Assembly (NCBI RefSeq): GCF_021654335.1
Contig: NZ_AP023423.1
Span: 1,797,001-1,861,000 of the forward strand
Source: Sideroxyarcus emersonii
GTDB taxonomy: Bacteria; Pseudomonadota; Gammaproteobacteria; Burkholderiales; Gallionellaceae
Length of the DNA: 64,000 nt
Direction: 5' to 3'
Position numbers and translations under genes: made by a program. Below are positions 39,577-42,750 of this stretch, piece after piece; position 1 is the first letter of the stretch; each line of letters opens with the position of its first letter. The notes below the pieces were generated by a model. The model was not told where the DNA came from. It worked only from the letters and a program-made list of their open reading frames with translations, and made no database searches.

Positions 39577-40272
39577 ATGTCCAACGCCGACCCCATCGAA
39601 CTGGAAAAATTCTCCCAACTTGCCCACAAATGGTGGGATCCGAACAGCGAATTCAAGCCCTTGCACGAGATCAACCCCTTGCGCCTGGGCTACATCGACC
39701 GCCTCGCCTCGATCTCCGGCAAGGCCGTGCTCGACGTCGGGTGCGGCGGCGGCATCCTGTCGGAGAGCATGGCCGGGCTGGGTGCCAGGGTGACCGGCAT
39801 CGACCTGGCCGACAAATCGCTGCAAGTTGCCAAACTGCATCTGCTGGAAAGCGGGAAACAGGTGGAATATCGCAAGGTGGCGGTGGAAGAGCTGGCGGCA
39901 GAACGCCCAGGCCAGTTCGACGCGGTGACCTGCATGGAAATGCTGGAGCATGTGCCCGATCCTGCGGGCGTGGTCGCCGCCTGTGCCAAACTGGTCAGAC
40001 CGGGCGGGCAGGTGTTCTTCTCCACCCTCAACCGCAACCCAAAGTCATATCTGTTCGCCATACTGGGGGCGGAATACATCCTCAACCTGCTGCCGCGCGG
40101 CACGCACGATTTCGCCAAGTTCATCAAACCTTCCGAACTGGCACAGTGGTGTCGCAATGCCGGCCTGAACGTTTTCGACGTGACCGGCATGAGCTACAAC
40201 CCGATGAACAAGACCTACTCGCTCGGGCACGACACCAGCGTCAATTACATGATCGCCTGCCGACGTGATTGA
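39577..40272 (+). CDS. ubiG: ubiquinone O-methyltransferase UbiG
   Basis: SAM-dependent methyltransferase for the two O-methylations of ubiquinone synthesis, 231 aa. Evidence is the UbiG N-terminus ([33 protein letters not shown]), the SAM motif [13 protein letters not shown] and the characteristic region [12 protein letters not shown] and [11 protein letters not shown]. The last codons overlap gph by 8 bases; the ubiG-gph pair is typical of proteobacteria. Confidence 0.96.
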
Positions 40273-40918
40273 AGCGGTTCTTTTCGACCTGGACGGCACC
40301 TTCGCCGACACCGCCCCCGATCTGGGCGCGGCGGCCAACCACGTGCGGGCGCAACATGGCCTGGCGCCGCTGCCGGTCGAGACCATCCGCCCGCAGGCTT
40401 CGCACGGTTCGCGCGGCCTGCTCAAGCTGGCGATGGACGTGGAACCAGAGGCGCCGGGCTATGACGCGATGCGCGATGCCTTCCTGCAGCACTACGAGGA
40501 GCACATCTGCGACCACACCGTACTGTTCCCGGGCATGGCAGCACTGGTCGCCGAACTGGAGCGGCACGACCTGCCATGGGGCATCGTCACCAACAAGCCG
40601 CATCGCTACACCGTACCGCTGATGGAGAAGCTCGGTTATGCCAAGCGCGCCGCCTGCCTGGTCAGCGGCGACACCTGCGCGCGCGCCAAGCCGCACCCGA
40701 TGCCGCTGCTGCATGCCGCCGGGCTGATCGGTGTCGCACCCGAGCACTGCCTCTACCTGGGCGACGACCTGCGCGATATGGAAGCGGCGCAGGCTGCCGA
40801 TATGACCGGCATCATCGCCGCATACGGATATATCGACCCGGCGGCTGATCTTTCCGCCTGGCCGGCCGCGGGCAGCGTGCCGGCCCCCTTTGCCTTGCTG
40901 CGTTACATCCAGACATGA
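40265..40918 (+). CDS. gph: phosphoglycolate phosphatase
   Basis: HAD-superfamily phosphatase that removes 2-phosphoglycolate, 217 aa. Motif I is [15 protein letters not shown] (Phe where most have Leu), motif II VTNKP, the Lys of motif III in ARAKPHP, and motif [13 protein letters not shown]. It starts with GTG at 40265, overlapping ubiG by 8 bases, so translation is coupled. The nucleophile and acid aspartates are intact, so it should be active. Confidence 0.93.
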
Positions 40919-40964: not shown

Positions 40965-42341
40965 ATGAACGAAGGGCGCAGCGGGGAAGACATCCCAATC
41001 AATCCGACACAGGACAGCATCCAGGAGATCCTGCACAAGGTCATCATCGCCCACCAACAAGCGCTGGCTCTTCTGCAACAGACCGAGACGGCCTACGGAC
41101 GTCTGGTTCCGCACCAATTGCTCAACCTGCTGGAAGCCAAGAGCATCGTCGACGTCAAGCTCGGCGATCAGGTCGAACGCAAGATGACCATCATGTTCTC
41201 CGACATCCGCGATTTCACCCCGCTGTCCGAATCCATGACGCCGGCCGAGAACTTCGAGTTCATCAACTCCTATCTCAGCCAGATGGAACCCGTCATCAGC
41301 CGGCATCGCGGCATCATCGACAAATACATCGGCGACGCCATCATGGCGCTGTTCGAGCACGGCGCTGACGATGCCGTTGGCGGCGCCATCGCCATGCTCG
41401 AACGCCTGGGCTACTACAATGCCGGACGCGAACGCGCAGGCTACACCCCGATTCACATCGGCATCGGCCTGAACACCGGCGTGGTGATGATCGGCACGGT
41501 AGGCGGCATCAACCGCATGGACAGCACGGTGATCGGCGATGCGGTCAACCTCACCGCTCGCCTGGAAGAGGCCACCAAGACCTATCACTCCCCCCTCATC
41601 ATCAGCCAGAACACCCTGTACGACCTGGCCGACCCGAAAAAATACGACATCCGCTTTCTGGATCGCATCCGCGTGAAAGGGAAATCCCAGCCGCTCTCGA
41701 TCTACGAGGTTTTCAACAGCGACCCGGAAGAATTGCGGCAAAGCAAACGCGACGCCCTGCCGGTGTTTGAAAAGGCCGTCGCCTATTACCACCTGCAAGA
41801 CATCGCCAAGGCTATTCCGCTGTTCAAGCAATGCATCGACATTTCTCCCGACGACTTCCCCGCCCTCATCTACCTGGAACGCTGCTATGAATACCAGGCC
41901 ACCGGGCAGCACTTTGGCACGGGCGAACTGCAAAGCGGGCTGGTCTGGAAAGAAGAGCAGCGCACCGGCGTGCCGGAAGTCGACGAGGCACACCGCCTGC
42001 TGATGGAACGAATCAACACGCTTACGGTACGGATCGATCAGGATAATTGCGACGGTTTCGGCGAGATATTCACCTTCCTTGCCCAGCATGCCCAACATCT
42101 CTTTCCGCTCGAAGAAAAGCTGATGCACGAGCACAACTACCCGTTCGCAGATGGCCACATCCAGGAGCATAAGCGGTTCATCGAAAACTTCACCGAGCTG
42201 GAACAGAAAGCCCGCAAGAACACGGAAGACTGCCGCTATCTGGCCTTCCGCACCGAACTGTTGCTGCTCGACTGGTTCGCCTCCCACGCCACCAAGGCCG
42301 ACCGCCACTTCGCCCGCCACCTGCTCAACAAGCCGAAGTAA
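40965..42341 (+). CDS. class III adenylate cyclase fused to a hemerythrin domain
   Basis: A 458-aa soluble protein. Residues 70-250 are a class III nucleotidyl cyclase with both metal aspartates (D80 in FSDIRDFT and D124 in YIGDAIMALF), adenine-type Lys120 and Asp186, and the transition-state pair N195/R199 (GDAVNLTARLE). Residues 260-312 look like a TPR hairpin. Residues 335-450 are a hemerythrin-like four-helix bundle with H343, E383, H398, H402, H441 and D446 at canonical spacing; the second His ligand is one residue off (H378, with Leu at 379). This suggests cAMP output controlled by O2, NO or di-iron redox state. The gene is followed by tmRNA. Confidence 0.88.
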   Translation: MNEGRSGEDIPINPTQDSIQEILHKVIIAHQQALALLQQTETAYGRLVPHQLLNLLEAKSIVDVKLGDQVERKMTIMFSDIRDFTPLSESMTPAENFEFINSYLSQMEPVISRHRGIIDKYIGDAIMALFEHGADDAVGGAIAMLERLGYYNAGRERAGYTPIHIGIGLNTGVVMIGTVGGINRMDSTVIGDAVNLTARLEEATKTYHSPLIISQNTLYDLADPKKYDIRFLDRIRVKGKSQPLSIYEVFNSDPEELRQSKRDALPVFEKAVAYYHLQDIAKAIPLFKQCIDISPDDFPALIYLERCYEYQATGQHFGTGELQSGLVWKEEQRTGVPEVDEAHRLLMERINTLTVRIDQDNCDGFGEIFTFLAQHAQHLFPLEEKLMHEHNYPFADGHIQEHKRFIENFTELEQKARKNTEDCRYLAFRTELLLLDWFASHATKADRHFARHLLNKPK

Positions 42342-42380: not shown

Positions 42381-42750
42381 GGGGGCGACCTGGCTTCGAC
42401 GTGGGTTGCAAAGCAGCGCAGGGCATACCGAGGACCCGCCACCTCGTAAATCAGCTGGAAAACCAATAGTCGCAAACGACGAAAAGTACGCTCTAGCCGC
42501 TTAACCGGTTAGACCTCACACCCCGCTGTCCGTGGAGGGGCTCAAGGCCGCAAGGCTGCGATGAGTGAGGTCATTTACACGGAATCGTGTCGTGCAGGGT
42601 TACTTTGTACGAAGCTAAAATTAAGGTGACTCGTCCTGTAGCAGCCTGTCGGTTGGCGTCTGCAGGATAAAATCAAATAACCAGACTAAGTATGTAGAAC
42701 TGCCTGTAGAGGGCTCGCGGACGGGGGTTCAATTCCCCCCGCCTCCACCA
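42381..42750 (+). ncRNA. ssrA: transfer-messenger RNA (tmRNA)
   Basis: Rescues stalled ribosomes by adding a degradation tag. The 5' end GGGGGCGACCTGGCTTCGAC and the 3' end with GGTTCAATTCCCCCCGCCTCC and encoded ACCA form the tRNA-like acceptor and T arm. The resume codon follows the conserved AATAGTC; the tag reads ANDEKYALAA and then TAA. Pseudoknot-forming GC stems follow the tag. The total length (370 nt) is normal for proteobacteria. Confidence 0.97.

Follow-up and report, generated by a model that had tools for sequence, protein, structure and literature searches.

The window, a stretch of 64,000 nucleotides from Sideroxyarcus emersonii, contains a gene for a protein in which a putative class IIIb-type adenylate cyclase is fused to a C-terminal hemerythrin domain, and in which leucine occupies the position of H54 (classical hemerythrin numbering), one of the two histidine ligands of Fe2. 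Across the cyclase-hemerythrin fusions, the Fe2 histidines (H25 and H54) appear from alignment and tree to have been lost repeatedly and the Fe1 histidines (H73, H77 and H101) never. The combination, in iron-oxidising bacteria, of a cAMP enzyme with a hemerythrin that lacks H54 and retains the remaining metal ligands points to an unusual switch that may respond to oxygen, redox state or iron.

Domain organization of the fusion protein

The positions of the gene, its domains and its neighbours are given in Table 1. The reading frame has no internal stop codons. The Pfam scan matches Guanylate_cyc (PF00211) to residues 72-242 with an E value of 1.4e-17, and the PDB matches of this part are CyaB, OaPAC and CyaC. 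The helix at residues 16-45 is predicted to act as a signalling helix preceding the cyclase. The earlier note had placed a TPR-like segment between the two domains, and this agrees with a sub-threshold TPR match at residues 268-297 and with three helices of the AlphaFold2 model. The hemerythrin profile TIGR02481 matches residues 328-452 with 76.4 bits, above its cut-off of 51.75. The Pfam Hemerythrin model (20.2, cut-off 25.3) and the bacteriohemerythrin subfamily profile NF033749 (76.5 bits, cut-off 84) remain below their cut-offs, so that the domain is a divergent member by curated profiles. The cyclase-hemerythrin fusion read in the earlier note is therefore borne out by matches to both domains, and it is kept in close and distant homologues. 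Fusion to an N- or C-terminal functional domain, one of the traits of hemerythrin-domain sensors, is found in this protein.

The AlphaFold2 model of the whole protein has a pLDDT of 86. The fold search with this model gave cyclases only, and therefore the hemerythrin part was modelled and searched separately (pLDDT 89). Four helices are present in both models. The best match of the isolated part is the hemerythrin domain of DcrH (3waq; Z 17.8, rmsd 2.2 over 132 residues, 27% identity; Foldseek E 3e-5), followed by McHr (4xpx, Z 16.4) and worm hemerythrins; unrelated bundles have Z values of about 12 and below, and FBXL5 is a weaker fold match (Z 9.6). The earlier note had staked its proposal on a four-helix bundle in the predicted structure and on a hemerythrin domain in close homologues. 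A DcrH-like bundle is predicted, and the domain is present and conserved in these homologues.

Table 1. Features of the fusion gene and its surroundings (positions in the window).
Feature	Position	Strand	Evidence or conservation
ubiG-like methyltransferase, upstream of fusion gene	39577..40272	+	conserved neighbour
gph-like HAD phosphatase, 46 bases upstream of fusion gene	40265..40918	+	conserved neighbour
Adenylate cyclase-hemerythrin fusion gene, 458 aa	40965..42341	+	ORF reading, profile matches, full-length homologues
N-terminal helix, residues 16-45	41010..41099	+	AF2 secondary structure
Putative class IIIb adenylate cyclase catalytic domain, residues 72-242	41178..41690	+	PF00211, PDB matches
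D80, first metal-binding Asp	41202..41204	+	invariant 85/85
K120, substrate-specifying Lys (ATP)	41322..41324	+	invariant 85/85
D124, second metal-binding Asp	41334..41336	+	invariant 85/85
T188, second base-specifying residue (class IIIb Thr)	41526..41528	+	invariant 85/85; aligned with CyaB Thr
N195 and R199, transition-state residues	41547..41561	+	invariant 85/85
TPR-like helical linker, residues 255-313	41727..41903	+	sub-threshold TPR matches; three helices in AF2 model
Hemerythrin domain, residues 326-453, four-helix bundle	41940..42323	+	TIGR02481; DcrH fold match
H343 (H25), Fe2 ligand	41991..41993	+	kept in 77/91 fusions
H375, one helical turn before H54 position	42087..42089	+	His/Tyr in 48/52 homologues without H54
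H378, hypervariable position	42096..42098	+	His in 8/84 homologues; at least 34 changes on tree
L379 (CTC) at H54 position, lost Fe2 ligand	42099..42101	+	alignment and motif spacing
E383 (E58), bridging ligand	42111..42113	+	90/91 fusions
H398 (H73), Fe1 ligand	42156..42158	+	91/91 fusions
H402 (H77), Fe1 ligand	42168..42170	+	91/91 fusions
H441 (H101), Fe1 ligand	42285..42287	+	90/90 fusions
D446 (D106), bridging ligand	42300..42302	+	90/91 fusions
ssrA (tmRNA), directly downstream of fusion gene	42381..42750	+	ARAGORN

Active site of the cyclase

The alignment covers Gallionellaceae and neighbours with 85 unique homologues, 84 of which include the hemerythrin region. The catalytic set of D80, K120, D124, T188, N195 and R199 is complete in the fusion protein and invariant in all 85. 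Class IIIb cyclases are defined by a base-specifying Thr. Because T188 aligns with the Thr of Pseudomonas aeruginosa CyaB, the protein is assigned as a class IIIb-type adenylate cyclase, for which activity and cAMP specificity are predicted from these residues. All but one of the catalytic residues named in the earlier note stand; the exception is D186, proposed there as the base-selecting residue, the column of which contains Asp in 47, Glu in 35, Gln in 2 and Ser in 1, whereas that of T188 is invariant, and T188 takes its place.

Iron ligands of the hemerythrin domain

In hemerythrins, H25 and H54 hold Fe2, and H73, H77 and H101 hold Fe1. O2 binds at Fe2, the iron on the smaller side of this three-to-two split of histidines, according to a 2022 review (PMC9388753). 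Of the canonical O2-binding set, H-HxxxE-HxxxH-HxxxxD, six of the seven ligands are present in the fusion protein, and they are those that the earlier note had assigned (H343, E383, H398, H402, H441 and D446). Its placing of L379 at the H54 position, with H378 directly before, is likewise upheld: L379 aligns to H54 without a gap, and the spacing L372-6X-L379-F380-2X-E383-2X-L386-M387 fits exactly the helix motif L-6X-H-F-2X-E-2X-L-M published in a survey (PMC2556348).

The H54 column contains His in 32 of the 84 homologues, Leu in 20, Ser in 14, Ile in 7, Cys in 4, Thr in 2, and Met, Gln, Asp, Val and Tyr in one each. Conserved iron ligands, another trait of hemerythrin-domain oxygen/redox sensors, are thus not found here, because H54 is lost in 52 of 84. 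The adjacent column 378 contains His in 8 homologues, 2 of which have His at 379 as well, and Glu, Thr, Asn, Ala, Ser, Gln, Phe and further residues in the others. When the changes are counted on a tree built from the cyclase-linker part only, column 378 requires 34 changes, column 379 requires 17, the median hemerythrin column requires 20, and those of H398, H402 and H441 require none. Because the H378 column is hypervariable and the H54 column is mostly non-His, H378 is not a conserved relocated ligand. The second histidine, which the earlier note had regarded as shifted, is lost rather than moved.

In the clade around the window protein (51 rows), no variation is seen in 13 hemerythrin columns (W328, D340, E383, M387, Y392, H398, E401, H402, W437, H441, D446, R447 and H448), although the average hemerythrin column is strongly variable in this clade, with a mean entropy of 1.66 bits. 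Five of the seven ligands (E383, H398, H402, H441 and D446) are among them. The H343 column contains His in 46 and Asn in 5 rows, and column 379 ranks 95th of 130 in conservation. H54 is kept in two branches of this clade (L027 and L029), and the others fall into a hydrophobic group (Leu, Ile or Met) and a Ser/Cys group. This distribution suggests that H54 has probably been lost several times; parsimony gives at least 4-5 changes of H54 within this set. Beyond this clade, H54 is retained by most members.

H375 was considered as a replacement ligand. In the 52 homologues without H54, this column contains His in 38 and either His or Tyr in 48, compared with 3 and 11, respectively, in the 32 with H54. 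This association is strong by count, yet it amounts to about three independent contrasts on the tree, so that significance is out of reach, and H375 is retained below only as part of a rival reading.

Several further features of these sequences are recorded here. Residue 438 (42276-42278), which we take to correspond to the gating leucine of the O2 pocket (L98 in worm hemerythrin, L114 in McHr), is Phe in 61 of 91 fusions. H448 (42306-42308), located two residues past D106 and not a classical ligand, is present in 83 of 84 fusions of the order to which the window belongs and is not conserved to this degree in distant fusions. Five genomes (G698, G743, G704, G722 and G769) contain two or three cyclase-hemerythrin copies each, and several of them mix copies with and without H54. 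In some Gallionella copies of the Ser/Cys group (L035 and L055), the N-terminal region is hydrophobic and resembles a membrane anchor; the window protein lacks such a region.

Distribution of the fusion and loss of Fe2 histidines

The full-length fusion is found in 73 of 150 Gallionellaceae genomes. Further families of the order carry it too, and a phylum-wide search adds members from other classes. A named homologue from a Sideroxyarcus MAG shows 84% identity, and gyrA matches reach 96%, in keeping with a Gallionellaceae member related to Sideroxyarcus/Sideroxydans. In a class-drawn set of 369 genomes searched at E <= 1e-90, the only full-length fusion is that of the window, the other matches being cyclase and TPR parts with other inputs. 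The distant fusions differ in their ligands: two have all seven (L189 and L190), three have lost H25 and keep H54 (L191-L193), one has Cys at H54 (L194), and one has lost both H25 and H54 (L195). A further distant homologue, L196, is degenerate, with nearly all ligands gone, and is excluded from the ligand counts over 91 fusions. These sequences are related, so that row counts overstate the number of independent events and only minimum change counts address kinship. The minimum numbers of changes on the tree of the 91 fusions are 7 for H25, 6 for H54, 1 each for E58 and D106, and 0 for H73, H77 and H101, the exact number of losses being uncertain because the deep branches are long and partly unsupported.

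Non-cyclase hemerythrin domains of the same bacterial family served as a control. In 60 such domains, H54 is present in 58, H25 in 59, H73 in 53, and the other four ligands in all; they were hand-picked from a score-ranked list with the lowest scorers omitted, so that very degenerate domains are under-represented. The cyclase fusions show the reverse, with H54 lost in 52 of 84 and H73 in none. Since the rows share ancestry, the Fisher p values for fusions versus control, 2e-14 for H54 and 0.002 for H73, serve only to describe the difference. H54 is also present in all nine of the other hemerythrins that were read from the genome to which the window belongs. Helix C departs from HxxxH, with Leu at H73, in four Gallionellaceae hemerythrins (L240, L244, L248 and L249) and in one from this genome (L069). 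Ligand loss is not rare in hemerythrins: in a survey (PMC2556348), 18% of the sequences are altered, and helix C accounts for 45 of the 71 alterations, helix B for 11 and helix A for 10, mostly in single-domain proteins.

Locus and genome setting

The gene order ubiG-gph-[AC-Hr]-ssrA is repeated in about 30 Gallionellaceae loci, and gyrA and serC are located beyond ubiG on the opposite strand in the homologous loci for which the contig is long enough. The ssrA gene directly follows the 3' end of the fusion gene in most Gallionellaceae loci (L003-L015, L019-L022, L024-L026 and L035). The genome to which the window belongs gives 11 hemerythrin matches and 15 cyclic-nucleotide-binding matches. 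Because three of the latter lie on Ser/Thr kinases, cAMP effectors are plausible. These kinases, in which the cyclic-nucleotide-binding domain is C-terminal (L175, L176 and L177), are candidate effectors. A rhodanese (L171) likewise has cNMP domains, and an MscS-like channel (L169) has one.

Discussion

We consider it somewhat probable that the fusion protein is a homodimeric class IIIb adenylate cyclase with the C-terminal hemerythrin domain as a regulatory metal module, which senses redox state and/or iron occupancy instead of carrying O2 reversibly. We infer the dimerisation, metal binding and regulation of the fusion protein, as well as the signal and the direction of its response. The Fe1 site (H73, H77 and H101) and both bridging carboxylates (E58 and D106) would be complete, and the Fe2 site, without H54, would be weakened or vacant. 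With one histidine fewer, Fe2 may be held less tightly, may react differently with O2, or may be absent from what would then be a mononuclear centre. Because the Fe1 ligands and the bridges are kept and an Fe2 histidine is missing, redox or iron-occupancy sensing is favoured over reversible O2 binding. The bundle would be altered by Fe(II) occupancy and by O2-driven oxidation of this asymmetric centre, and the TPR-like linker would pass the change on to the cyclase dimer and so affect the cAMP output, with a coupling and a sign that are presumed here. In the hemerythrin-like domains of BTS/FBXL5 (BRUTUS), asymmetric iron coordination is linked to unequal iron lability (PMC12022348). H54 loss is not required for maintenance of the fusion, because about 40% of the fusions keep H54. 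Against the sensor reading, the kept ligands could serve an iron centre without a role in cyclase regulation. More tentatively, the Fe2 site may have been dismantled repeatedly under strict selection on Fe1 and the carboxylates, such that an iron centre, either mononuclear (3-His, 2-carboxylate) or half-labile, reports Fe(II) supply and redox state to cAMP in iron oxidisers, an O2 binder having become an iron/redox sensor.

It is unlikely that the domain is instead a near-canonical diiron O2 sensor, in which Fe2 is held by H25, two carboxylates and water, or by H375, and O2 is bound with changed affinity. The retention of H25 in 77 of 91 fusions and the frequency of H375 where H54 is lost agree with such a sensor. 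However, the three or so contrasts behind the H375 association cannot be significant, L027 has H54 and H375 together, and a residue one full helix turn away would probably not contact Fe2 without a backbone change. That H378 takes the place of H54 and tunes O2 affinity is suggested by its position beside L379 in the window protein, but this is scarcely credible, because the column is rarely His and otherwise Glu, Thr, Asn or Ala, because His occurs also at 379 in some of the sequences concerned, and because a shift by one residue rotates the side chain by roughly 100 degrees about the helix axis.

A decaying or purely structural bundle, namely a metal-free domain that serves as a dimer or partner-binding element, would account for the Fe2 ligand missing in most Gallionellaceae copies, for the absence of H25 from some of them, and for the distant homologue L196. 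It is quite unlikely, given that the clade around the window protein keeps five of the seven ligands without exception against a background of strongly variable columns. The domain may alternatively store or deliver iron or O2 for a partner, the cyclase being controlled through the N-terminal helix or through bicarbonate, like other class IIIb cyclases. The class IIIb residues, the conserved N-terminal helix and the many hemerythrins in the genome are consistent with this arrangement, which is nevertheless very unlikely, because, among chimeric hemerythrins, a fixed C-terminal fusion whose linker is conserved from family to family is more often the mark of a sensor.

The fusion is a candidate for how microaerophilic iron oxidisers sense the Fe(II)/O2 gradient. 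The fusions also provide a natural mutant series, with His, Leu, Ile, Ser, Cys or Asp at the H54 position of otherwise similar proteins. The predicted cAMP output and the recurrent one-sided loss of Fe2 ligands make it possible to ask directly which of the two irons in a hemerythrin sensor transmits the signal.

Comparison with known systems

Fusions of hemerythrin with signalling enzymes are already known; in the papers searched, no adenylate cyclase partner was found described. The partners given in the available parts of the 2008 and 2016 surveys and the 2022 review are MCP, GGDEF, histidine kinase, HD-GYP and P1B-ATPase, and adenylate cyclase is not named in these parts (PMC2556348, PMC4919030, PMC9388753). 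A genome paper on Sideroxydans and Gallionella (2013) tabulates no cyclase partner (PMC3770913). A literature search on cyclase-hemerythrin fusions, such sensors, ligand-deficient hemerythrins and the hemerythrins of Sideroxydans and Gallionella did not find the fusion in openly readable papers, so that an earlier mention is possible. Chemotaxis, c-di-GMP and a metal ATPase are the targets of the sensors covered in the 2022 review, among which only the P1B-5-ATPase lacks the full ligand set (PMC9388753).

Among these systems, Vibrio cholerae Bhr-DGC (hemerythrin-GGDEF) resembles the window protein in that hemerythrin is tied to a nucleotide-cyclising output, and it serves here as the model for redox switching. 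It differs in that its hemerythrin is N-terminal, its product is c-di-GMP and all of its iron ligands are conserved (PMC9388753), whereas the window protein has a C-terminal hemerythrin, a class III cyclase and no H54. Ferrovum sp. Bhr-HD-GYP is likewise a hemerythrin sensor of an iron-oxidising bacterium, the activity of which follows the iron oxidation state, but its output is a phosphodiesterase and all of its ligands are conserved (PMC9388753). The hemerythrin of Desulfovibrio vulgaris DcrH is the closest solved structure and is also C-terminal, but its output is a chemotaxis receptor and its seven ligands are canonical. The iron sensors FBXL5/BRUTUS share the asymmetric diiron coordination (PMC12022348), but have a ubiquitin-ligase output, the motif H-HxxxE-H-HxxxE and a more distant fold. 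The adenylate cyclase of Mycobacterium phlei, according to the accessible part of its description (PMC4626032), similarly has a metal-binding module attached C-terminally to a class III cyclase, but this module is a YHS domain, the cyclase is of class IIIc, and the protein is probably a copper sensor.
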